A stretch of DNA of 64,000 bases, taken from positions 1,922,001-1,986,000 of the forward strand of contig NZ_CP076456.1 of NCBI RefSeq assembly GCF_018866305.1, in the 5' to 3' direction. Of the stretch, positions 48,565 through 62,011 are shown one piece after another; position 1 is the first letter of the stretch; each line of letters starts with the position of its first letter. Source of the DNA: Arthrobacter sunyaminii. GTDB lineage: Bacteria > Actinomycetota > Actinomycetes > Actinomycetales > Micrococcaceae. Position numbers and translations under genes: made by a program. Below the pieces are notes generated by a model. It did no database searches, had not been told where the DNA came from, and was given only the letters and a program-made list of their open reading frames with translations.

Positions 48565-49686
48565 TTAAGCCGGGGTTCCGATCATCGGTACGGTTTCCAG
48601 CATTGATCCGAGTTCGGACATCAGGGCCGGAGCACTGCCCAGGGAATAGGCGTTCTGCCGTCCCCACAGGAAGTAGCGGTGGATCTGGTAATCGATGTCC
48701 GCGCCCATGCCGCCGTGCAGGTGCTGGGTCGCCAGCACGACGCGAAGGCCGCCGTGTGCCGCCCACCAGGACGCAACGAGCGACGCGGATTCCGCGCCGT
48801 CGTCGCCTCGGTCAACGAGCCAGGCGGCCCGGCGGGTGGTGAGCTTGATGCGCTCGGCATCAAGGTGTGCGTCGGCGGCCCGGGCCGAGACGGCCTGATT
48901 GGCCGAGAGCGGACGGTCGAACTGGATGCGCTCGGAGGTGTAGGCCGCAGTGATGGCGATGGCTTCTTCGCAGATTCCGGCCTGGACTGCCGCCAGGGCA
49001 ATGCGTCCGAGCATGCGTGCCTGCTGCACCGGCATGGATCCGCCGGTGAGCACTTCGTCGTCACCAACGTGCACCGCATCCAGAACAACACTGGCGGCCG
49101 CACCGTGACTCGTCAGGGAAACGCTCTCGCGGCTGACCCCCTCCCGGTCCACGGGCAGGATAACGGCGATCACGCCGTCGTCTGTCTTCACCGGCACCAG
49201 CAGGGCAGCTGCATTACCGGCACCCGGGACCGCCAGCAGGGTGCCGGAGATCCGCCACCCGCTGCCGTCGCGTTCGCCGCGTACAGCGTTGTCGCCGTCA
49301 ACGGCCGCGTCAATGGCACCGGTAATCAACAGCGATCCGTCAAGGAACCCGGGCAGCCAGCGGTCGCGCTGCGCGTCCGTTCCCCAGCAGGAGATGGGCA
49401 GCGCGGCCATGGCGACGGCGGCGGCGAAGGGAACCGGGGCAACCCGCCGGCCCTGCTGCTCCAGTACCGCCACCAGACCGAGGACGCCCAAACCGGAACC
49501 GCCGTGTTCTTCGGGCAGTGCCAGCCCCAGGATTCCTGTCTCCGCGAGGGCTTTCCACAGTGCGTCGTCGTGCCCGCCTTCTTCGCGCTCGACGTCCCTC
49601 ACGCGCGTGGTGGTGGCCATCTGCGTGAAGACTTCCTCCGCCAGCTGGGCTGCTTCGCGCAGATCCTCATCGAGTTCGAACTGCAT
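48565..49686 (-). CDS. Acyl-CoA dehydrogenase, non-catalytic-type subunit (FadE-like)
   Basis: 373 residues, short for the family. The N-terminus and helical core are recognisable (FELDEDLREAAQLAEEVF, LALPEEHGGSGLG, IQFDRPLSANQAVSARAADAH), but the C-terminal FAD/substrate block reads HLHGGMGADIDYQIHRYF with no YEGT-type catalytic segment. Such subunits form alpha2beta2 heterotetramers with a partner dehydrogenase, as FadE28-FadE29 do in mycobacterial steroid side-chain breakdown. Its start overlaps the end of the next dehydrogenase gene by 20 bases, which supports obligate pairing. Last gene of the seven-gene operon. Confidence 0.82.
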   Translation of the reverse strand: MQFELDEDLREAAQLAEEVFTQMATTTRVRDVEREEGGHDDALWKALAETGILGLALPEEHGGSGLGVLGLVAVLEQQGRRVAPVPFAAAVAMAALPISCWGTDAQRDRWLPGFLDGSLLITGAIDAAVDGDNAVRGERDGSGWRISGTLLAVPGAGNAAALLVPVKTDDGVIAVILPVDREGVSRESVSLTSHGAAASVVLDAVHVGDDEVLTGGSMPVQQARMLGRIALAAVQAGICEEAIAITAAYTSERIQFDRPLSANQAVSARAADAHLDAERIKLTTRRAAWLVDRGDDGAESASLVASWWAAHGGLRVVLATQHLHGGMGADIDYQIHRYFLWGRQNAYSLGSAPALMSELGSMLETVPMIGTPA

Positions 49687-50890
49687 GTGCCTCTTCCTTC
49701 TTCTCTTGGCGGCGGACCGCTACGGTCATTCCCAGTGACTTGGCGGCAACAAGATCCCGCAGGACCTCGTTGCTGCCCCCACCGAAGGTATTGTTCTGCG
49801 CGCGGCGGGCCAGTGTCTCGACCCGGCCGCTGATGGCGGCACCGCGGGATCCCGGGCGCAGCAGGCCTGCCACACCCAGCACGTCCTGCAGCTTGCCGTA
49901 AACCTCCACGACTGTTTCCGTTCCAATCACCTTCGCTGCGGCTGCGTCTCCGCCGGCCAGCGTGCCGGCGGAAACATCGGCAACGAGCCGAAGGTTCACC
50001 AGCTCCGCCGCTGAGAGCAGGGCGTAAACCTCCGCCAGTGTCGAGCGGACCCAGGGCAGGTCCAGGACGTGTCCGTCACCGTACGGTTCGGTGCGGGCCC
50101 AGTCCAGAACCTGGCTGAAGAGCTCGTTGGCGATGCCGCCGCGTGCGGCCAGGGCAACGCGTTCATGGTTGAGCTGGTTGGTGATCATCCGCCAGCCCTC
50201 GTTGAGTTCGCCGACGACATTGCTCAGCGGGACCCGGACATCCTCGTAGTAGGTGGCGGCGGTGCTGATGCCGCCCACGGTGTGGATCTCGGTGGCAGAG
50301 AATCCGGGGGCCGTGGTGGGCACCATGACCACCGAAATACCCTTGTGCCGCGGTGCATCGGGGTCCGTGCGCACTGCCAGCCAGATCCAGTCCGCAAAGA
50401 TGGCGGCGCTGGTGAAGAGCTTGTTGCCGTTGATGACCAGCTCGTCGCCTTCGATCCGCGCGGTGGTGCGCAGCGAGGCGAGGTCGGTGCCGGCACCGGG
50501 CTCCGAGTAGCCGATGGCGAACATCAGCTCTCCGGCCAGGATCGGCGGGAGGAAGAACTCCTTTTGTTCCTGGGTGCCGTGTTTCATCAGGGCGGGCGCA
50601 ACCGTGTTCAGGCTGACCAGGGACAGGGGCGCATTGGCGCGGATCACTTCGTCATAGAAGACGAACTGCGCTTCGGGGTCCTCGCCCCGCCCGCCGTATT
50701 CCTCGGGCCAGCCAAGGCCCAGCCAGCCGTCGGCGCCCATCTGTTTCAGGATCCGGGAGAACGTCGGGCCGCCCTCGGTCTGGTCCACGAGGTCGCGGGC
50801 GTCGTCGGCGTTGATGATCCTGGCGAAGTAGGCGCGCAGCTCCGCGCGCAGCTGCTTAGAGGCCGGTGAAAGATCTGGATTCATTGTCAC
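49667..50890 (-). CDS. Acyl-CoA dehydrogenase, partner subunit
   Basis: 407 residues. IGYSEPGAGTDLASLRT is the FAD loop, and the C-terminus reads NNTFGGGSNEVLRDLVAAKSLGM, where the medium-chain enzyme's catalytic Glu is replaced by Gly (FGGGSNE in place of YEGT). The active base is therefore probably elsewhere or on the paired subunit. Together with the overlapping 373-residue gene it resembles the FadE28/FadE29-type heterotetramer that dehydrogenates branched, ring-attached acyl-CoA thioesters. Same operon as the aldolase and hydratase genes. Confidence 0.85.
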   Translation of the reverse strand: MTMNPDLSPASKQLRAELRAYFARIINADDARDLVDQTEGGPTFSRILKQMGADGWLGLGWPEEYGGRGEDPEAQFVFYDEVIRANAPLSLVSLNTVAPALMKHGTQEQKEFFLPPILAGELMFAIGYSEPGAGTDLASLRTTARIEGDELVINGNKLFTSAAIFADWIWLAVRTDPDAPRHKGISVVMVPTTAPGFSATEIHTVGGISTAATYYEDVRVPLSNVVGELNEGWRMITNQLNHERVALAARGGIANELFSQVLDWARTEPYGDGHVLDLPWVRSTLAEVYALLSAAELVNLRLVADVSAGTLAGGDAAAAKVIGTETVVEVYGKLQDVLGVAGLLRPGSRGAAISGRVETLARRAQNNTFGGGSNEVLRDLVAAKSLGMTVAVRRQEKKEEAHAVRTR

Positions 50891-50899
50891 TCCTGGGAC

Positions 50900-52078
50900 T
50901 CAGTGGTCGGTAGCAAGGATGAGTGCGCTGTGCGGCACGGGCGAACCACCGGTGACCAGCACATTCGCGAGGTTTTTGGGCGGCTGGTTGACCGATGTGC
51001 CGCGGATCAGGCGCACGCCTTCGGCAATTCCGTTCACACCGTGCAGATATCCCTCGCCAAGCTGGCCGCCGTGGGTGTTGATCGGCAGCGAACCGGTGAG
51101 CTCCAGCTGGCCGTCGGCGATCATGTCCTTGGCCTCGCCGCGCTTGCAGAAACCGTATTCTTCGAGCTGCAGCAGGACCATGGGGGTGAAGGCGTCATAC
51201 AGGATGGCTGCATCGATGCCTTCCTGGCCGTGTCCGGCCTGCTGCCACAGCTGCCGGGCTACCAGTTCAACTTCGGGCATCTCATCGATGTTGTCCCGGT
51301 AGTAGCTGCTCATGGAGATCTGCTGCGGGCCCACGCCCTGCGCGGCGGCAGTGATGATCGCCGGAGGATGCGGAAGGTCACGCGCGCGTTCGGCACTGAC
51401 GATCACCAGTGCCTGCCCGCCGTCGGTCTCCTGGCAGCAGTCCAGCAAACGCAGCGGATCCGCGATCATCCGGGAGGCCTGGTGGTCCTCAAGGGTGATG
51501 GGACGGTTGTGGAACCACGCCAGCGGATTGTTCGCCGCATGTTTGCGGGACAACACAGAGATCTGCCCGAAGTCAGCGCTGGTCACGCCGAACTCCTGCA
51601 TGTAGCGCCGGGCGAGGAACGCCTCCTGCGCCGCAGGGGTGAGCAGTCCGTACGGATTGATCCAGTTGCGGTACTCCTGGTCCGTGGTGGTGGCGTAGGC
51701 AAACTGCGGGGGACCGGAGCCGAAACGGTGTCCGGAACGCTCGTTGAAGGCCCGGTAGACGACGACGACGTCCGCCACTCCGCTGGCGACCGCCATGGCT
51801 GCCTGCTGCACGGGAGCGCAGGCTCCGCCGCCGCCGTGCGGGATGCGGCTGAAGAATTTCAGCTCCGGGATCCCCAGCGCCCGGGCCACGGCAATTTCCG
51901 GATTGTTTTCCATGGAGAACAGGGAGAAGCCGTCGACTTCCTCAACCGGGATCTGCGCATCGGCGAGCGCCGCCAGTACTGCTTCACAGGCGAGGCGCCA
52001 TTCACTGCGTCCGGAGTCCTTGGAGAATTCGGTGGCGCCGATTCCGGCAATGGCTGCCTTCCCCGAGAACCCGCTCAT
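50900..52078 (-). CDS. Thiolase-fold lipid-transfer-type protein (Ltp2-like aldolase)
   Basis: 392 residues. The N-terminus AAIAGIGATEFSKDSGRSEWRLACEAVLAAL and the block RIPHGGGGACAPVQQAAMAVASG are typical of SCP2/lipid-transfer thiolase homologues, which often lack the classical thiolase nucleophile pattern. The C-terminus has NTHGGQLGEGYLHGVNGIAEGVRLIRG. Together with the DUF35 partner two genes upstream it fits the Ltp2/ChsH2-C retro-aldolase, which cleaves the last C2-C3 piece of steroid side chains as an acyl-CoA. Its start overlaps the MaoC stop by 4 bases. Confidence 0.85.
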   Translation of the reverse strand: MSGFSGKAAIAGIGATEFSKDSGRSEWRLACEAVLAALADAQIPVEEVDGFSLFSMENNPEIAVARALGIPELKFFSRIPHGGGGACAPVQQAAMAVASGVADVVVVYRAFNERSGHRFGSGPPQFAYATTTDQEYRNWINPYGLLTPAAQEAFLARRYMQEFGVTSADFGQISVLSRKHAANNPLAWFHNRPITLEDHQASRMIADPLRLLDCCQETDGGQALVIVSAERARDLPHPPAIITAAAQGVGPQQISMSSYYRDNIDEMPEVELVARQLWQQAGHGQEGIDAAILYDAFTPMVLLQLEEYGFCKRGEAKDMIADGQLELTGSLPINTHGGQLGEGYLHGVNGIAEGVRLIRGTSVNQPPKNLANVLVTGGSPVPHSALILATDH

Positions 52079-52482
52079 GCCGCGGCCTCCTGGCGGGTCA
52101 GGTTCACCGTTGCCGTGACATGGATGCCCCGGTCATGGGAGCCGGTCACCTTGACCGTGGTCCCGGCGGCATCCGCGGCGATGATTTCTCCGGTCAGGTG
52201 CAGAACGTCCCCGGGGTGCAGCGGCATACCCAGACGAAGGGAGACCGAGCGCAGCCGCGCAGCCGGTCCGGCCCAGTCGGTGACGTAGCGTCCCACGACA
52301 CCGTTGGTGGTATTGATGCTGATAAAGATGTCCGGCGTTCCCCGGTTAATGGCCGCATCCGGATCGTGGTGCACATCTTCGAAGTCCTGCGAAGCGATGG
52401 CGCCGGCAACTATGAAGGCGCGGTCGATCGGGATGTCCAGCACCGGAAGCGTTTCTCCCGGTGTGAATCCGTTGCTGCTCAT
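52075..52482 (-). CDS. MaoC-family enoyl-CoA hydratase (ChsH1-like)
   Basis: 135 residues from ATG 52482; the start lies in a 4-base overlap with the DUF35 gene. A single hot-dog domain with AGAIASQDFEDVHHDPDAA, which keeps the hydratase-2 Asp/His catalytic pair. Single-domain MaoC proteins of this type form heteromers with a MaoC-like partner lacking the pair (here the 186-residue protein). In mycobacteria ChsH1 plays this part in hydrating the unsaturated steroid side-chain thioester. Confidence 0.85.
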   Translation of the reverse strand: MSSNGFTPGETLPVLDIPIDRAFIVAGAIASQDFEDVHHDPDAAINRGTPDIFISINTTNGVVGRYVTDWAGPAARLRSVSLRLGMPLHPGDVLHLTGEIIAADAAGTTVKVTGSHDRGIHVTATVNLTRQEAAA

Positions 52483-52928
52483 GACACTCCTTGCTGAGTA
52501 ACGTCTGATTCCCCGTGTCCGGGCCGAAGCCTCAGACGGGGGAGTACCTCGCCGTGGGCGTGTTCGGCAAAGTAGACCTCCACCGGGCAGCCGACGGCGA
52601 GGGCATCGTGGTCGGTGGGCTCGAAGTCCGCCACCAGACGGGTGCCGGTATCCAGGTCCACGAGCCCTACCAGGAGCGGATAGGTGAAGGCCGGATCCTG
52701 AGGGTGGTGGACCACGGTCCAGCTGTGGAGGGTTCCCTGCCGCGAAGACTCCACCGAGTCCCAGTCGAATGATCGGCACCGGGGACAGCTTGGGGCGGGC
52801 GGATGGCGCAGGGTTTCGCAATCCGTGCACCGCTGCACGAGCAGGCGGCCCTCCGCGGCGCCGTCGAACCAAAACACGTTGTCATGTGTCCGCACCAGAT
52901 GCGGAACAGCAGTGCCCGGGATAGTCAT
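52479..52928 (-). CDS. DUF35 OB-fold protein with rubredoxin-like zinc ribbon
   Basis: 149 residues. Four Cys at 34, 37, 48 and 51 (QRCTDCETLRHPPAPSCPRC) form the zinc ribbon; residues ~65-140 form the OB fold (GTLHSWTVVHHP, PLLVGLVDLDTGTRLVADF). DUF35 proteins serve as acyl-CoA-binding partners of thiolase-fold enzymes. In Mycobacterium this domain is the C-terminal half of ChsH2 and activates Ltp2; here it is an independent gene between two MaoC genes. Confidence 0.9.
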   Translation of the reverse strand: MTIPGTAVPHLVRTHDNVFWFDGAAEGRLLVQRCTDCETLRHPPAPSCPRCRSFDWDSVESSRQGTLHSWTVVHHPQDPAFTYPLLVGLVDLDTGTRLVADFEPTDHDALAVGCPVEVYFAEHAHGEVLPRLRLRPGHGESDVTQQGVS

Positions 52929-53485
52929 GAGTCCTCCTTGGGACGAAACCGCAGCAGCGTGAACTTTTCGGTGGCGATGGTGTTCTGTTCGGCGTCCACA
53001 TACCGTTTGCCCAGAACGAGGAAGAACCCTTCGCCGAGTCCGGTCTTCTTGGGCCCGGCGACGGAATCGATGGTGATGTGGCAGCTGACCTGTGTTCCCA
53101 CCGTCAGTTCGCGTTCATACTCCTGCTCCATCTGGGTGGCCACCACCGAGGTGTACCCGGCCTGGTCCAGCAGGGACAGCAGCTCCGCGTAGGGGGTGGC
53201 CTCGACGACGCCTTCCGCCCGCGCGCGCTGCACTTCCCGCCAGCGGCGGTATCCGGACATCACCCACGTGGAAACCATGGCCGGGGGAGCGATGATGCCG
53301 CTGCGGCCGTTCTCCAGTGCCGCTGTCTCGTCGACGTAGACCGGATTCCGGTCGTCCAGGGCCTCGGCCCAGTTGCGAATCATCGCCTCCGACACCCCGT
53401 AGCGGGCCACCCGTGGAGGCTCAGCTACAGTTCCAACAAACCGCTGCAGATCCTCAGCGCGCAGTACGTGTTGGGCAGTTGTCAT
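52925..53485 (-). CDS. MaoC-like (FAS1-type) dehydratase N-terminal-domain protein (ChsH2-N-like)
   Basis: 186 residues, hot-dog fold of the MaoC_dehydrat_N type (RYGVSEAMIRNWAEALDDRNPVYVDE, then GIIAPPAMVSTWVMSGY). The Asp/His catalytic pair of hydratase-2 is absent, so it is likely the structural or substrate-binding partner of the 135-residue MaoC. It corresponds to the N-terminal half of mycobacterial ChsH2. Overlaps both neighbours by 4 bases. Confidence 0.85.
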   Translation of the reverse strand: MTTAQHVLRAEDLQRFVGTVAEPPRVARYGVSEAMIRNWAEALDDRNPVYVDETAALENGRSGIIAPPAMVSTWVMSGYRRWREVQRARAEGVVEATPYAELLSLLDQAGYTSVVATQMEQEYERELTVGTQVSCHITIDSVAGPKKTGLGEGFFLVLGKRYVDAEQNTIATEKFTLLRFRPKEDS

Positions 53486-55212
53486 CGGGTACCAGCTCCT
53501 ACAGTTTCTACGAGGGCAGCAGATGCTGCGGGGAGGGAATTGATGCGCCCCGCCGCGATGAATTCATTGCGCAGTGCTTCACGGTGTCCATCCTCCATGC
53601 GGATGTAAGCACTGCTGCGGTTCCGGGCCCACCAGACGTTCTCCGCTTCCCAGGCCACCTTGCGCAGTGGAGCCTTGTCGATTTTCGCGTTGGCTGTGGT
53701 GGGCGCTTCGTCAACTACTCGAATAAAGGTGGGACGCCATTTGGTGCCGAGGTCCGGTTGGGCATCGAGAAAGGCTGCCAGATCAACGGGATCGAATTCG
53801 GCGCCCGGATGAAGCACCAGGGTGCACATGAGCTGATCGCCCGTCAGCGGGTCCGGTACGGCATAGGCATGGACTCCGGAGACGGCCGGATGCCGCGAGA
53901 TAATGCGTTCAATGGGAGCGGTGCCGAAGTTCTCACCGTCCACCCGCAGCCAGTCCGAGGTTCGGCCGCCGAAGTAGAAGTAGCCCTCCTCATCGCGGTA
54001 CCCAAGATCCCCGGTCCAGAAGTCCTCTCCACCGAACCGCAGGCGTTCGGCCATCGCCTCGGGGTTCTTGTAATAACCCTCAAAGCGAGGACCTGCTCCC
54101 ACCACGACGATCTCCCCCGTGGCTTCCTCGGCATTGAGGAGCCGTCCGGTGTCGTCGAACTGTGCCCTGGGGCATTCCGTGCCGTCGGCGGAGCGGATCT
54201 CCACCGCCATGCCGGCAGCCGGGAGGCCGAGGGCGCCGGCGGGCGTGCCCGGTACGGGAACGATGCGGATGATGCCCTCGCTTGACCCAAAGCCTTCACG
54301 GACCTCGCAGCCGAACCGCCGCCGGAAGCTTTCCGCTTCGGCAGGAGATGCCTCGGAGCCGAAGACTGATTCAAGGCAGTTGTCGGCGTCGGCCGGATCT
54401 TCCGGCTGAGCCAGAATGTAACTCAGTACGCGTCCCACGTAGTTTACGAACGTCACCTTGTGCTCGCGGATATCGCGGGCGAAACGGCTGGCCGAGAACT
54501 TGCGGACCATGACCACTGTGGCCCCGGCCTCGGCCGCCGTGGCCAGGTTCATCATGATGCCGTGGCCGTGGAACAGCGGCAGGTGCAGGTAGCTGACGGA
54601 CCCGCGGTGCAGTGAAATGCGCTCCGTCAGGCTGGGAGTCACTGTGCCCAGGCGTCCCTGCGTGCAAATGACGGCCTTGGGGGCTCCGGTGGATCCGGAG
54701 CTGAACAGCAGCAGATAGATCGCGGACGGGGCCGGTATTTCTGCGGGCAGGGGAGCGCCGGCATGGGATTCGAGCAGCTGAGCGTAAGCCTCAGACTCCA
54801 CGTCGAAGATGCGGCCTGCCGGCACCGGCAGCTCCGGGCAGTCATCGGACGCCAGATAGAGTGGTTCGCTGATCAGGAGATCGCAGTCCGCGTGCTGCAT
54901 GTCATGCGTGAGTTCAGCACCGCGCCGTGTCGGGTTGATGCCGACAATGACGTCGCCGCTCAGTGCTGCCGCGAGAAGCCAGAAGACATAGTCGGGGGTG
55001 TTCTGCAGCAGGACTCCCACATGGACCTGGTGGCGTCCGGTGCCGGGCTCAATGGTCCCGAGGATGGCGGCGCGGGTGGATGCCTCGTCGATGACCTGGG
55101 CCCAGCTCCAACTCCGCCCCTCGAAGCGAAGGCCCTCATGCTCGTCCTGCGCGCGGCTTGTCACCACTTCTGCGTACGTTCGCACCGCATCTTCTCCTTG
55201 TTGTCCCAGCAT
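53482..55212 (-). CDS. AMP-forming acyl-CoA synthetase (FadD17-like)
   Basis: 576 residues, first gene of the operon. The P-loop motif is LLLFSSGSTGAPKAVI, the A5-type motif YKNPEA and the hinge YFYFGGRTSDWLRVDGENF are intact, and the catalytic Lys is expected in ANAKIDKAPLRK near the end. It should load a carboxylic acid onto CoA to start the pathway encoded downstream. FadD17-type enzymes have this role in mycobacterial steroid side-chain degradation. Its start is 126 bases from the divergent IclR gene. Confidence 0.87.
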   Translation of the reverse strand: MLGQQGEDAVRTYAEVVTSRAQDEHEGLRFEGRSWSWAQVIDEASTRAAILGTIEPGTGRHQVHVGVLLQNTPDYVFWLLAAALSGDVIVGINPTRRGAELTHDMQHADCDLLISEPLYLASDDCPELPVPAGRIFDVESEAYAQLLESHAGAPLPAEIPAPSAIYLLLFSSGSTGAPKAVICTQGRLGTVTPSLTERISLHRGSVSYLHLPLFHGHGIMMNLATAAEAGATVVMVRKFSASRFARDIREHKVTFVNYVGRVLSYILAQPEDPADADNCLESVFGSEASPAEAESFRRRFGCEVREGFGSSEGIIRIVPVPGTPAGALGLPAAGMAVEIRSADGTECPRAQFDDTGRLLNAEEATGEIVVVGAGPRFEGYYKNPEAMAERLRFGGEDFWTGDLGYRDEEGYFYFGGRTSDWLRVDGENFGTAPIERIISRHPAVSGVHAYAVPDPLTGDQLMCTLVLHPGAEFDPVDLAAFLDAQPDLGTKWRPTFIRVVDEAPTTANAKIDKAPLRKVAWEAENVWWARNRSSAYIRMEDGHREALRNEFIAAGRINSLPAASAALVETVGAGTR

Positions 55213-55256
55213 TTGGCTCTACGCTAGGTGAACTTCAGCCCCGCTCCGCCGCTGTC

Positions 55257-55307
55257 CCACCCAGTGGAATCCGCTGGGTGGAATCCCGCTGGGCGGAACC
55301 GCCACGG
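55257..55307. promoter_or_regulatory. Inverted and tandem repeats between acyl-CoA synthetase and IclR genes
   Basis: CCACCCAG at 55257-55264 and CTGGGTGG at 55274-55281 are perfect inverse 8-mers with a 9-base spacer, within a run of near-tandem ~15-base units of the form TGGAATCCGCTGGG. IclR proteins often bind such elements; it is placed between the divergent genes. Confidence 0.5.
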
Positions 55308-55338
55308 CACCGGGCGTACGGCGCGGCAAACTGTACCC

Positions 55339-56136
55339 ATGACTGATGCACAGCAGTTTGGTGATGCGCTGCGGGACGGCGCGGGACCGCGCAGCGGTGT
55401 TCTGGAACGCGTCACCCTGATCATGGACTGCCTCGGCGAGGCCCCCGGCCACCTCGTGCTCGAAGACGTTGCCGCCATCACCGGGCTTGCAAGGTCGACA
55501 ACCTTCCGGTTGCTCCGCAAGCTGAGCGATCTGGGCTGGGTCAGCCACGACGTTGAAGGCTATGTGCTCGGACCGCGGTTGGCGTACCGCGGAGTGTTGT
55601 CTGATTTTGACGGGCTCCGGGCGGCGGCGTCACCGGTGCTGGCTGAGCTGGCAGCCGCGACTGGCTTCGTTGCGCATCTTGGCATCATGCACCGCGGGTT
55701 CGTGGATTATGTGGACAGGACCGGCACGGGCGCTCAATCGAGCGTGCCCACGCGGATTGGAACCAGAATCTTTGCTCCGGAATCGACCTCCGGCATGGCG
55801 ATCCTCGCCTGGATGGACCCCGAGGAAGTTGACGCCGCCATTGAGCACGCCGGAGTGAACCGCACGGGCAGCCGCGAGGAACTTCACCGTGAGCTTGCCG
55901 CTGTACGGCGCCGGGGAGGCCTGGCCTACCGGGACGGCAGCCGCCATGCCAGCGGCGTCAGCTCCGTGGGTGCGGCCATCATCGGTCCCGGGGGACCGGT
56001 GGGTGCGGTGTCGGTTGCACACCGGGGAGCCATCCCCGAGCAGGTCACCGGTCCGCTGGTGCTGCGCGCCGCCGAGGCCATTGGCACCGGGTTGGGTAAC
56101 GGGACGGGTAACGGGACGCGAAGCCTGCCGCGGTGA
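55339..56136 (+). CDS. IclR-family transcriptional regulator
   Basis: 265 residues from ATG 55339; longer in-frame reading passes through the putative operator. N-terminal winged helix at ~20-80 (VLEDVAAITGLARSTTFRLLRKLSDLGWV), then the effector-binding domain with TSGMAILAWM and GGLAYRDGSRHASGVSSVGAAIIGPGG. The conserved C-terminal core is present, with a Gly/Thr/Asn-rich tail. Divergent from the acyl-CoA synthetase operon, it is the likely local regulator. Confidence 0.87.
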   Translation: MTDAQQFGDALRDGAGPRSGVLERVTLIMDCLGEAPGHLVLEDVAAITGLARSTTFRLLRKLSDLGWVSHDVEGYVLGPRLAYRGVLSDFDGLRAAASPVLAELAAATGFVAHLGIMHRGFVDYVDRTGTGAQSSVPTRIGTRIFAPESTSGMAILAWMDPEEVDAAIEHAGVNRTGSREELHRELAAVRRRGGLAYRDGSRHASGVSSVGAAIIGPGGPVGAVSVAHRGAIPEQVTGPLVLRAAEAIGTGLGNGTGNGTRSLPR

Positions 56137-56193: not shown

Positions 56194-56961
56194 ATGCTCG
56201 CCGAGATGGCCTTTTTCTCATTTGTGGAACTCACGGACCCCACGACGCACGGAGCCTACAACCGTTGGCATCAACTCGACCACCGGCCGGAAAACCTAGC
56301 CCTTCCCGGCGTGGCCTGGGGGGACCGCTGGGCACGCACCGGCAAGGAAACGGAGCCTGTCCGAGGAACGGCCGTGGACGGCACTGACTACGTGGCAATG
56401 TACTGGTTCCGGCCGCCCGTGGAGGAGAGCGTCGCGGCATGGGACCGTCTCGGGGAAGCATCATTTCAATGGGGGCGGGGTCCCATCATTCCGGGAGTTC
56501 GGCGGCCGCTGCTCGGTTTCTTTCGACCGGTCAAGGGCTACGCAGCGCCGCGCGTGCTGGTCGATCCGGACGTCCTGCCCTACCGTCCGAACCGCGGGCT
56601 GCATCTGACCCTGACCCGCTATCCAGAGCCCCACAGCCGGGATGCACACGATGCCTTCGCCTGGGAAGATACCCGCCTGATTCCGGAACTGCTCGGGGTG
56701 GACGGGGTGGCCGGGGCCTGGACCTTCTCATTCAGCCATCCCCAGCAGCACGGCACGCTGCCGTTCAAAGGGTCGGTGTCCGCGCCTCCCGGTGGCCTGC
56801 GGGTCCGAATGCTCTACTTGGACGAAGATCCGGGTCCAACGGCTGAGGCCGTCACGCAGGCGGAACAGGCCGTCAACGCGGCACCGGAAGCACCGCGAAA
56901 CACGGGTGAGGTGCTGTTCGCCTCGCCGCTGCAGACCATCATTCCGTGGCAGGACTGGTAG
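56194..56961 (+). CDS. Hypothetical protein, possible dimeric alpha/beta-barrel (EthD-like) fold
   Basis: 255 residues from ATG 56194, chosen because AAAGGAG lies 6-12 bases before it; an in-frame TTG at 56173 lies within the operator. FSFVELTDPTTHGAYNRWHQLDHRPENLALPGVAWGDRWAR near the N-terminus and a second block around HLTLTRYPEP/DAFAWEDTRLIPELLGVDGVAGAWTFSF look like two half-barrel units typical of ferredoxin-like or EthD-like proteins. Catalytic residues cannot be named. Position under the CAAGnnCTTG motif suggests a role with the neighbouring MBL, SDR and thioesterase genes. Confidence 0.55.
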   Translation: MLAEMAFFSFVELTDPTTHGAYNRWHQLDHRPENLALPGVAWGDRWARTGKETEPVRGTAVDGTDYVAMYWFRPPVEESVAAWDRLGEASFQWGRGPIIPGVRRPLLGFFRPVKGYAAPRVLVDPDVLPYRPNRGLHLTLTRYPEPHSRDAHDAFAWEDTRLIPELLGVDGVAGAWTFSFSHPQQHGTLPFKGSVSAPPGGLRVRMLYLDEDPGPTAEAVTQAEQAVNAAPEAPRNTGEVLFASPLQTIIPWQDW

Positions 56962-59459: not shown

Positions 59460-61070
59460 TCAGTTTTCACTGAACACAAACCCGGGGTACCCGTTTCCGG
59501 CCACTTCGTCGAGGCGGGCGGTGTAGGTGTGGAAGCCGCCGAGGTAGGGCATGAAAGTGCGCGGCTTGCCGGGGATGTTCGCCCCGGCGTACCATGACGG
59601 CGCGTCGGCAAACAGCGTCTTCCCGGCAACCTCGCCCAGATGCGCCGTCCACGCGGCGGCCGCGTCGCTGCGCGCTTCGACCGACGAGTACCCGTGCTCG
59701 GCCGCGTGCAGGATGAGCCGGAGCGCATAGGATCCCTGCTGCTCGGAACCGAGCGCCATGTTGGAGAGCACGCTGGGGCTGCCTGGTCCGTTCAATGTGA
59801 GCAGGTTCGGAAAGCCGGGAACTCCGATACCCAGATAGGTCTGTGCACCGTCCTTCCAGGCGTCGCGTACGGTGCGTCCGTGCCGGCCAATGATGTCGAT
59901 GGCGGTCAGTGCGCCGGTGAGCGCATCGAAACCCGTCGCGTAGACAATCGCATCCAACGCGTGGAACCCGGACTCCGTCTGAACGCCCCCGGGCGTGATG
60001 GCGGTGATCGGGTCCCGGCGAAGATTCACCAGGTGTACATTCGGCCGGGTATAGGTCTCGAAGTACCCGGAATCCGTGCAAATGCGCTTTGTGCCGATGG
60101 GATGGTCCGTCGGCGTGAGGTCTCGGGCCAGATCCTCATCCCGCACGATGTTCCGGAGCCGGCGTTCAAAGTAGACGCGCGCCGCATCATTGATTTCCGT
60201 GTCGATTGTCTGGCGTTCAAAGGCCTTGCCGTAGAGCACGCCGCCGCGCGTCCAACTCTCGGCCAGGACCTGCTCACGTTCCTCCGGGGCCAGATTCTCG
60301 TAGGGAACCGAATAGGATCCCCAGGGGCTCCCCGCCGCACTGTTCCAGGACTCCTTCCGGCGGCGGGGGTACTCCTCGAGTACCTGCTGCCATTCCTCGT
60401 CTGCGAGGGGACGGTTGTAGGCGGGAACACTGTAATTGGCGCTGCGCTGGAACACGGTCAGCTCCGCGGCCTGATCGGCAATCAGCGGGATCGACTGCAC
60501 GCCGGAGGAGCCGGTTCCCACGACGCCGACACGGAGGCCGGTGAAGTCCACGCCTTCGGCCGGCCAGTTCGCTGTCAGGTACACGGCGCCGGCGAAGGAA
60601 TCACGGCCGGGAAGATCCGGAAGGTTCGGCTGGGACAAACTCCCGGTCGCCATGACCAGCCATCGGGCCGTGACGGTGTCACCGGCGCTGGTGGAGATGT
60701 GCCACACCTGAGCGTCCTCGTCCCAGCGTGCACCGGCAACCTTGGTGTCGAAGCGGTAGTCCCGGCGCACATCAAACCTGTCGGCAACGTGGCTGAGGTA
60801 GCGCAGGATCTCGGGCTGCGTGGCGTAACGCTCGCTCCAGCGCCACTGCTGCTGCAGGTCCTCGTCAAAGGAATACGAGTAGTCGATGCTTTCCACGTCG
60901 CAGCGTGCCCCGGGATAGCGGTTCCAGTACCAGGTTCCGCCGACGTCACTGCCGGCCTCGATGCCAAGAACGTTCAGCCCGGCCCGCCGGGCATGAATGG
61001 TTGTGTACAGGCCGGCAAAACCTGCGCCCACGACGACGACGTCGCGGCTGGCGGTGTTGTTGCTGCTCAT
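59460..61070 (-). CDS. Baeyer-Villiger monooxygenase (cyclohexanone monooxygenase-like)
   Basis: 536 residues from ATG 61070 in a 4-base overlap with the hydrolase gene upstream. FAD motif GAGFAGLY at 15-22, RYPGARCDVESIDYSYSF at 51-68 and NADPH motif GTGSSG are intact and of the CHMO class. The BVMO fingerprint reads FAGAVYLTANWP at 159-170, with Leu at the position normally held by His (165) and correct F, G, W and P. The loop region RPLADEEW and the DSGYFETYTRPNVHLV block are CHMO-like. Expected reaction: ketone to ester or lactone with NADPH and O2. Overlap with the hydrolase gene suggests one functional unit. Confidence 0.88.
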   Translation of the reverse strand: MSSNNTASRDVVVVGAGFAGLYTTIHARRAGLNVLGIEAGSDVGGTWYWNRYPGARCDVESIDYSYSFDEDLQQQWRWSERYATQPEILRYLSHVADRFDVRRDYRFDTKVAGARWDEDAQVWHISTSAGDTVTARWLVMATGSLSQPNLPDLPGRDSFAGAVYLTANWPAEGVDFTGLRVGVVGTGSSGVQSIPLIADQAAELTVFQRSANYSVPAYNRPLADEEWQQVLEEYPRRRKESWNSAAGSPWGSYSVPYENLAPEEREQVLAESWTRGGVLYGKAFERQTIDTEINDAARVYFERRLRNIVRDEDLARDLTPTDHPIGTKRICTDSGYFETYTRPNVHLVNLRRDPITAITPGGVQTESGFHALDAIVYATGFDALTGALTAIDIIGRHGRTVRDAWKDGAQTYLGIGVPGFPNLLTLNGPGSPSVLSNMALGSEQQGSYALRLILHAAEHGYSSVEARSDAAAAWTAHLGEVAGKTLFADAPSWYAGANIPGKPRTFMPYLGGFHTYTARLDEVAGNGYPGFVFSEN

Positions 61071-62011
61071 GGGGTGTGCTCCTTGGTGACGGTGTTTTGG
61101 CCGGCGAACAGCCTGGTGAAATCGGCCCACAGGATGGAGCGGGCGGATGCTCCCGGTCCGTAGCCGGGCATGGTGAGGAAGCCGTGGAACTGGTCCGGGT
61201 AGTGGCGGTGCAACGCAGTGTTTCCCGCCCCGCGCAGCAGTGCAGCATAGTCGCGTCCCTCGTCGCCAAGGGGATCGAGCCCGGCGGTGACGGTGATCGA
61301 CGGCGGCAGGGATGAGAGGTCTTCAGCCGTTTGCGGCATGAACCGCCAATCCGGAGCGGCCTCCGCGGCGGGTCCGCCAAGGTAGGTCTCCCAGTAGAAG
61401 CGCAGGGCACGGGCGGTGACGAAGTAACCCTCTGCCCTCAGCCGGTAACTTTCGGATTGCATGCGCGGATCGAGCATGGGATAGATCAGCACCTGACCGG
61501 CAATCAGGTCCGACCCGCGGTCCCGCAGGGTTAGGGCAGCTGCGGCAGCCAGATTGGCGCCCGCACTGTCCCCGGCCAGAACCAGGCCCCGGGCCGCTTC
61601 CCCCCTGTCAGCCAGCCAGTGCGCGACCGCGACGACATCAGCCACCGGGGCCGGCGCCAAATGCTCGGGCGCCAGACGGTACTCAACGGAGACAACGGAT
61701 GAACCCGTCCCCGCCGCCCACAGCCGGCAGAAGCGATCGTGCCCGGCTATCGATCCGTGCAGGAATCCGCCCCCGTGGGCGTAAACCGTGGCCGGGGCGG
61801 ACGGAGACGGTGCGTGGGGGCGGTAAATCCGCACGGGAATGCCGCCGTGCTCCGACGGAACAAGTGCATCCTCCGCTGCCGCAACATCATCGAGGTTCTG
61901 TGCGGGAGGGATCCGCGCATCGACAGCCGCGCGGGCTGCCAGTGGGTCCATGCCGGCAATATCGGGAAAGGAAGCATTCAGAGCTGCCAGCATGGTTTGT
62001 GTCTCGTCCAT
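61067..62011 (-). CDS. Alpha/beta hydrolase (HSL family)
   Basis: 314 residues. The oxyanion motif HGGGF (YAHGGGFLHGS), nucleophile GDSAG (Ser in LAGDSAGANLAAA), acid in GLDPLGDEG and His in HYPDQFHGF make a complete HSL-family esterase. It would hydrolyse the ester or lactone made by the BVMO encoded downstream in the same operon. The operon is led by this gene and is divergent from the PadR gene. Confidence 0.9.
   Translation of the reverse strand: MDETQTMLAALNASFPDIAGMDPLAARAAVDARIPPAQNLDDVAAAEDALVPSEHGGIPVRIYRPHAPSPSAPATVYAHGGGFLHGSIAGHDRFCRLWAAGTGSSVVSVEYRLAPEHLAPAPVADVVAVAHWLADRGEAARGLVLAGDSAGANLAAAAALTLRDRGSDLIAGQVLIYPMLDPRMQSESYRLRAEGYFVTARALRFYWETYLGGPAAEAAPDWRFMPQTAEDLSSLPPSITVTAGLDPLGDEGRDYAALLRGAGNTALHRHYPDQFHGFLTMPGYGPGASARSILWADFTRLFAGQNTVTKEHTP

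Follow-up and report, generated by a model that had tools for sequence, protein, structure and literature searches.

A predicted steroid C3 side-chain operon in Arthrobacter sunyaminii with a split ChsH2 and an aldolase lacking the oxyanion histidine

Two described actinobacterial modules that remove the C3 (propionyl) side chain from steroids, igr in Mycobacterium and Thermomonospora curvata and cas (CasI, CasL-P) in Rhodococcus jostii RHA1, encode an acyl-coenzyme A (CoA) dehydrogenase pair, a hydratase pair, a DUF35 domain and an Ltp2-type aldolase together. A review names CasI as an activator of steroid C3 side chains (PMC8399759). For the aldolase of T. curvata (TcLtp2), Tyr294 is described as the base, His296 as part of the oxyanion hole and Tyr344 as the acid (PMC12329534). 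The locus considered here lies in a 64,000-nucleotide (nt) stretch of Arthrobacter sunyaminii (contig NZ_CP076456.1, positions 1,922,001 to 1,986,000), called the window, whose numbering is used unless a locus or the genome is named. Its minus strand carries seven genes at 48565-55212 that probably (roughly 0.83, judged from sequence) form an operon for removal of the C3 side chain from a steroid C22 acid. This predicted steroid C3 side-chain module shows two testable oddities: no single ChsH2 chain tethering hydratase to aldolase, and no oxyanion histidine in the aldolase.

Both features can be set against earlier work. The proteobacterial retro-aldolase Sal has the same fold and is also DUF35-associated. 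It acts on C5 side chains, carries a YDCY motif and has Gln in place of the second Tyr, and its partner Shy is a single chain with both a DUF35 and a MaoC part (PMC11321319, PMC12329534). The oxyanion hole proposed for CtSal, which lacks the second Tyr, consists of the Gly391 backbone and Gln161, and exchange of Cys304 for Ala killed activity (PMC12329534). As for the tether, separate expression of the MaoC and DUF35 parts of ChsH2 in Comamonas testosteroni is reported to retain both activities; the same report holds that DUF35 is required for the aldolase and that efficient removal depends on proper complexes (PMC12502768). According to PMC11321319, DUF35 binds the aldolase, and hydration can do without it; with reference to earlier work, that paper also presents DUF35 as seemingly unimportant for aldolase activity, in disagreement with PMC12502768. 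The flexible CtShy-CtSal link is considered hard to reconcile with direct channelling, and substrate channelling in ChsH1-ChsH2-Ltp2 is stated as an open question (PMC12329534).

The seven-gene operon and its predicted reaction sequence

The genes follow the order acyl-CoA synthetase, MaoC-N, DUF35, MaoC, Ltp2-type aldolase, FadE_A and FadE_B. An earlier reading of this DNA, made without database searches (the sequence-only reading), had recognised these seven genes and their domains, an igr-type set headed by a FadD17-like ligase, and a ChsH2 whose halves are separate genes. All open reading frames (ORFs) were found where it had placed them. Profile searches recovered the domains, profiles and Protein Data Bank (PDB) matches bore out the set, and the leading ligase and the two ChsH2 ORFs were likewise recovered.

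The leading gene (53482-55212; PF00501) encodes a CasI/FadD17-like acyl-CoA synthetase, in the sense of a steroid-22-oyl-CoA synthetase. Its best named family is CasI (NF052587) at 553.8 bits, under the cut-off of 900. The same family comes closest for the ligases of the relatives L005 and L012 (593 and 597 bits, likewise under cut-off). The PDB search found no close solved structure for this ligase, the best match reaching 119 bits. The MaoC-N gene (52925-53485; PF13452, FAS1_DH/MaoC-N) scores 113 bits against the N-domain of Mycobacterium tuberculosis ChsH2 (PDB 4W78/4WNB; 4W78 swaps the ChsH1 and ChsH2 labels, and 4WNB matches the usage here). It reads DRNPVY, with Tyr replacing the catalytic His, as in an inert partner. 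The Asp/His dyad (DFEDVHHD) occurs only in the ChsH1-like MaoC subunit (52075-52482), which scores 120 bits against M. tuberculosis ChsH1 (4WNB) and 25.4 bits against Pfam MaoC, just under the cut-off of 27. Its start was set at the ATG at 52482 rather than at the TTG of the ORF list. Between the two lies a free-standing DUF35 protein (52479-52928), whose match to the DUF35 part of ChsH2 in PDB 6OK1 scores 124 bits. It comprises a zinc ribbon (PF12172, zf-ChsH2), with the four Cys of CxxC...CxxC kept, and an oligonucleotide-binding (OB) fold (PF01796, OB_ChsH2_C).

The thiolase-fold aldolase (50900-52078) matches PRK07855 at 633.6 bits (cut-off 469) and, in the PDB sequence search, T. curvata Ltp2 (6OK1_A) at 529 bits. 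FadE_A (49667-50890, with an ATG at 50884) is ChsE2/FadE29-like and scores 441 bits against Tcur3483. FadE_B (48565-49686) is ChsE1/FadE28-like, with 259 bits to Tcur3481. These are the two subunits of PDB 6WY8, which we take to be a steroid enzyme, the entry itself being labelled just acyl-CoA dehydrogenase. On that assumption for the dehydrogenases, the nearest solved structures of all six non-ligase proteins are steroid side-chain enzymes. Benzoylsuccinyl-CoA thiolase BbsAB also pairs a free-standing DUF35 protein with a thiolase-fold partner, but the window genes fall far under its cut-offs (38 of 250 bits for BbsA, 120 of 750 for BbsB).

Packing of the genes is tight. ATGA overlaps of 4 nt join synthetase to MaoC-N, MaoC-N to DUF35, DUF35 to MaoC and MaoC to Ltp2. 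FadE_A and FadE_B overlap by 20 nt, and the gap between Ltp2 and FadE_A is 15 nt counted from the ATG at 50884.

In the proposed sequence, the ligase would activate a steroid C22 (pregnane-20-carboxylic) acid as its CoA ester, and FadE_A/FadE_B would desaturate this at C17-C20. Hydration by the MaoC and MaoC-N pair would give a tertiary 17-alcohol, which the aldolase with free DUF35 would cleave to a 17-ketosteroid and propionyl-CoA. The ketosteroid could then pass to the KstD/KshAB/Hsa and Ipd pathways of ring breakdown, whose genes lie elsewhere in the genome. Compared with the igr module, the operon shares the enzyme functions, the ChsH1 dyad, the inert ChsH2-type MaoC, the DUF35 Cys and the Ltp2 Tyr pair; it differs in its two-gene ChsH2, YDAF for YDHF, the leading CoA ligase and the gene order. 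The cas module and similar Streptomyces and Rhodococcus loci have a CasI-like ligase and the C3 side-chain step in common with it and group with it by Ltp2. They differ in a fused ChsH2 and in the order synthetase-FadE-ChsH2-FadE-MaoC-Ltp2.

Gene splitting and the aldolase active site

MaoC-N and DUF35 occupy two frames of 186 and 149 amino acids (aa), against 334 aa in a fused relative, and both domains are complete. The 4-nt overlap that parts them lies at 52925-52928. A sequencing slip can be dismissed, because the same split recurs in 17 further contigs and, by coordinates, in the other three genus genomes that have the aldolase (one of which, G024, is apparently the same genome as that of locus L004). 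No intact fused ChsH2, a possibility raised with the sequence-only reading, was found among the strain's OB_ChsH2_C matches; the two others in the genome are also free-standing genes. It is reasonable to predict a free DUF35-aldolase complex from these sequences, as the sequence-only reading did.

Comparison was extended to loci L004-L083, the best 80 of at least 575 relatives in a genome scan. MaoC-N and DUF35 are fused in 57, split as in the window in 17 and also separate genes in three others, the Nocardioidaceae loci L057, L061 and L067; three could not be scored (L019, L079, L080). One of the latter, the Lentzea locus L019, has, immediately ahead of Ltp2, a free DUF35 gene that is not accompanied by a MaoC-N match. 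Across the 20 split loci, a script that counted GTG starts scored the 4-nt overlap in 18; read from the bases themselves, the overlap is 4 nt in L012 and 1 nt in L067. Some gene calls were made by codon scores, which leaves some shadow ORFs and truncated starts.

In a quick tree built from 81 Ltp2 rows, the window type falls in one clade of 19 rows, with support of 99 in the Shimodaira-Hasegawa-like approximate likelihood ratio test (SH-aLRT). Together with the fused loci L021 and L023 and a Lentzea paralogue, this clade forms a group (SH-aLRT 99), and this group in turn clusters with the cas-like fused loci (96); L023 is a long row, and the root is unsure on account of a Sal-like outgroup on a very long branch. 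L057, L061 and L067 make up a second split clade (SH-aLRT 100) among the igr-type loci, so that at least two changes are needed. Since both split clades are surrounded by fused rows, fusion is taken to have preceded splitting. The Nocardioidaceae split is independent of that of the window clade, and these operons further differ in keeping YDHF and in having a single acyl-CoA dehydrogenase ORF of 718-742 aa in place of two. They probably correspond to KR76_12325-12345 of Nocardioides simplex, which is listed as an igr operon with four of five genes marked as phytosterol-induced (PMC7807495, PMC7593942). Read from the published table, KR76_12330 and KR76_12335 would be the two ChsH2 halves. No report discussing a naturally split ChsH2 as such was found in the open-licence PubMed Central (PMC) literature. 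Natural operons in which the tie was dropped at least twice and the genes were kept offer a direct test of channelling.

How widespread the arrangement is was gauged in a class sample of 394 genomes, 103 of which had an Ltp2-type match at E 1e-120. Only two, the strain itself and G435, reached 85% identity or more. Among the loci of 29 of the best class-sample matches, 24 were scorable: 17 fused with YDHF, one window-type with YDAF and six split with YDHF. The last six (L136, L143, L146-L148, L150), igr-type operons like the Nocardioidaceae ones, are one family and lie outside the tree. The window's type is uncommon, given one in 24 scorable loci and two genomes at 85% identity or above; split genes by themselves also occur outside it. 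Within the clade, Ltp2 proteins are 78-99% identical to that of the window across Micrococcaceae, Nocardiaceae, Pseudonocardiaceae, Nocardioidaceae and Propionibacteriaceae. Ten loci (L007, L008, L010, L011, L012, L014, L015, L016, L018, L080) have a DegT/DnrJ-type aminotransferase gene right after Ltp2, assigned by a family search on L010 and in the others by the same N-terminal sequence. We know of no role for such an enzyme in a steroid side-chain cluster.

The window aldolase has YDAF (51188-51199) where TcLtp2 has YDHF: Tyr294 is kept and Ala296 stands for the His. The second catalytic Tyr, Tyr344 (51047-51049), is also kept. YDAF occurs in 19 of the 80 loci in addition to the window, and YDHF in the other 61. 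By residue comparison, position 296 is Ala in all 20 split rows and His in all 60 others, and position 383 is His (50930-50932 in the window) in 19 of the 20 and Thr in all 60 others. Gly343, Gly377, Ser379, Phe154, Glu152, Tyr308, Trp27, Leu53 and Gly85 also mark most of the split clade, and some clade-marking residues are common to L021 and L023. The same pattern holds among the best 120 of at least 7999 protein candidates, all at least 81% identical: every one of the 119 readable motifs has Ala, His383 is present in 119 of the 120, and residue 343 is Ala instead of Gly in 13. The loss of the YDHF histidine in this clade is a new finding, absent from the sequence-only reading, and no report of a YDAF Ltp2 was found in the open-licence PMC literature. 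The clade provides a natural variant for steroid aldolase studies.

As in Sal, the third motif position is not His, but YDAF is not Sal's YDCY. CtSal Gly391 corresponds to Gly378 of the window aldolase. For CtSal Gln161, phmmer gives window residue 148, a MAFFT alignment of the strain's own Sal-like gene (see below) gives Gln at 154, and no correspondence is claimed. Backbone amides, as partly proposed for CtSal, or His383 might replace the oxyanion His. A bolder and tentative proposal, which we hold at somewhat below even odds, is a mechanistic class of its own, separate from Ltp2 and Sal. Its mark would be Ala in place of the oxyanion His296, the same clade being set apart also by His383 for Thr and Gly377 for Ala, and it would be untethered from the hydratase. 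Hydration would be pulled by the separately assembled DUF35-aldolase, and side-chain or ring specificity would be its own. Three points bear against the reading of the operon as a whole. The absence of YDHF with its oxyanion-hole His296 means that activity is not to be presumed; split and residue changes share a single branch, which makes their link one event from which no causal tie can be drawn; and the second split clade keeps YDHF with His296, so splitting does not require the residue change.

The missing His296, described as part of the oxyanion hole of TcLtp2 (PMC12329534), could also mean that the split-clade aldolase is crippled or catalyses another thiolase-fold reaction. We consider this improbable: both Tyr are kept, the 78-99% identity across five families speaks for selection, and the aldolase frame is open in three of four genus carriers. 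In the fourth, L098 (genome G023), the aldolase lies in two frames covering residues 1-94 and 86-392, by frameshift or assembly error.

Steroid genes elsewhere in the genome and the possible origin of the substrate

The strain's genome (3.9 Mb, one contig) contains a KshA gene over cut-off (283.5 bits). Its neighbourhood (L104) includes HsaF/HsaG-type genes over cut-off and a reductase that reads as KshB-like. Genes under cut-off there are KstD-like (470 of 789 bits), HsaD-like (282 of 400) and HsaA-like (379 of 450), the latter two with these as best family. A further gene scores 324 of 450 as HsaC-like and 338 of 366 as biphenyl-2,3-diol dioxygenase, both again under cut-off. To the right of the operon, starting 15-20 kb away, lies a C/D-ring-like cluster (L084, L100) with a PRK07851 thiolase (669 bits, cut-off 580), which we take to be FadA6-like, and a FadD3-like ligase (629 of 657). 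By reading of the sequence, it would also hold a branched-chain-type ATP-binding cassette transporter and a KstR2-like TetR gene. Two CoA-transferase pairs (about 1.996-1.998 and 2.009-2.010 Mb), within 15 kb of one another, read as IpdA/IpdB. The IpdE2 profile gave 16 matches in the genome, none over cut-off, and was not used as evidence.

Arthrobacter is among 16 actinobacterial genera predicted to degrade steroids (PMC4810484). The comparison across Arthrobacter genomes put forward with the sequence-only reading found the aldolase in four of 29, the strain included. A Sal-like gene occurs in the same four, and full-length KshA in five, namely those four and G014; two further genomes have a KshA fragment under cut-off. 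Chance values that ignore kinship are 2.1e-4 for the aldolase lying within the KshA set and 4.2e-5 for identity of the aldolase and Sal-like sets. Farther afield, KshA is over cut-off in 19 of the 20 genomes behind L004-L022 and L080, the miss being the fused YDHF locus L021. A steroid 3-ketoacyl-CoA thiolase stands beside the module in the split-clade loci L010 (593 bits) and L022 (724; cut-off 515), the two loci tested. The suggestion in the sequence-only reading of a perhaps non-steroid substrate is not borne out by these genes, the co-occurrence with KshA, the thiolases of the two relatives, the nearest structures and the nearest family of the ligase.

Several results weigh against the steroid C22 acid reading. 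The ligase and the KstD- and HsaA, C and D-like genes all score under their cut-offs. A ligase match falls within the fetched stretch of only six of the 19 clade loci (L004, L005, L006, L012, L014, L020) and is not constant. Several of these genera commonly have KshA, which makes 19 of 20 a weak test outside Arthrobacter. No CasG-type C24 ligase over cut-off was found in the genome, and the Sal-like locus described next is unlinked, about 1.48 Mb from the operon.

This second locus (L085, genome positions 3448000-3466000), new relative to the sequence-only reading, carries a Sal-like aldolase with a YDCY motif (L085:7740-8945). Beside it are an aldehyde dehydrogenase and a free DUF35 protein of 130 aa, in which only the OB domain is matched; there is no zinc-ribbon match, and Cys is absent from residues 1-70. 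A two-hotdog MaoC hydratase lies further along. A KstD-like gene (466 of 789 bits), a two-domain acyl-CoA dehydrogenase and a CoA ligase of the nucleoside-diphosphate-forming type complete the set. The locus is reminiscent of the Sal/Sad step in the breakdown of bile acids by Proteobacteria. Sal1 and Sad are listed as absent from R. jostii RHA1 (PMC8399759), and YDCY homologues have been noted in cholesterol-degrading Actinobacteria (PMC12329534). The gene content suggests a double retro-aldol, bile-acid-like route for this Arthrobacter. The Sal-like aldolase and aldehyde dehydrogenase would be a likely feeder, shortening a C24 side chain to a free C22 acid, which would account for the ligase at the head of the operon. 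A third DUF35-thiolase pair occurs at L086:8506-10057 (about 419.5-421.1 kb), by genes reading as P450, ferredoxin and CaiB-type CoA-transferase.

The module might instead take a C22-CoA already activated from a sterol (cholesterol or phytosterol), as the igr operon does, and not the free acid. The thiolases beside L010 and L022, a P450 in L022 that reads as CYP125-like and the reported phytosterol induction of the N. simplex igr-type operon (PMC7807495) favour such a role. We nonetheless regard it as unlikely for this strain, whose genome yielded no close CYP125 relative (best match to the L022 P450 34% identical) and no MlaD/Mce match, no genome-wide search being aimed at FadA5-type thiolases, and which has a ligase related to free-C22-acid ligases and the Sal-like aldolase with its aldehyde dehydrogenase.

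Genes beside the operon

About 4 kb from the operon, a Baeyer-Villiger monooxygenase (BVMO) gene (59460-61070, minus strand) overlaps by 4 nt an alpha/beta hydrolase gene (61067-62011, minus strand). Such a pair could process a cyclic ketone, and the classical Arthrobacter route for cyclohexylacetate uses a ligase, dehydrogenase, hydratase and retro-aldol cleavage to a cyclic ketone. The operon might on this ground serve a non-steroid acid such as cyclohexylacetate. The best solved match of the BVMO, however, is the steroid monooxygenase 4AOS (607 bits, against at most 452 for cyclohexanone monooxygenases). In the three other genus carriers, relatives of the BVMO are no closer than 34-36% identity (two genomes) or absent at E 1e-60 (G023). 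With the ring-steroid genes and the KshA co-occurrence added, we consider a cyclohexylacetate-type substrate very improbable and have dropped it in favour of the steroid C22 acid. As observed in its own right, the BVMO with its esterase of the hormone-sensitive lipase type (59460-62011) would fit a progesterone-type side-chain removal.

Upstream of the operon and divergent from it is an IclR-type gene (55228-56136, plus strand; PF09339/PF01614), 67% identical to a gene in the same position in Arthrobacter APC 3897. It is a candidate operon regulator. The gene after it (56194-56961, plus strand) encodes a 255-aa protein with no Pfam or NCBIfam match at 1e-3. A 75% identical copy lies by the same operon in Arthrobacter APC 3897. 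More distant relatives occur in the Lentzea locus L019 (44%; L019:9167-9880, overlapping Ltp2) and near the module in Nocardioides L013 (38%). A weak structural model from four sequences (mean predicted local distance difference test score 57), of too low quality to be used in a fold search, suggests two tandem ferredoxin-like halves.

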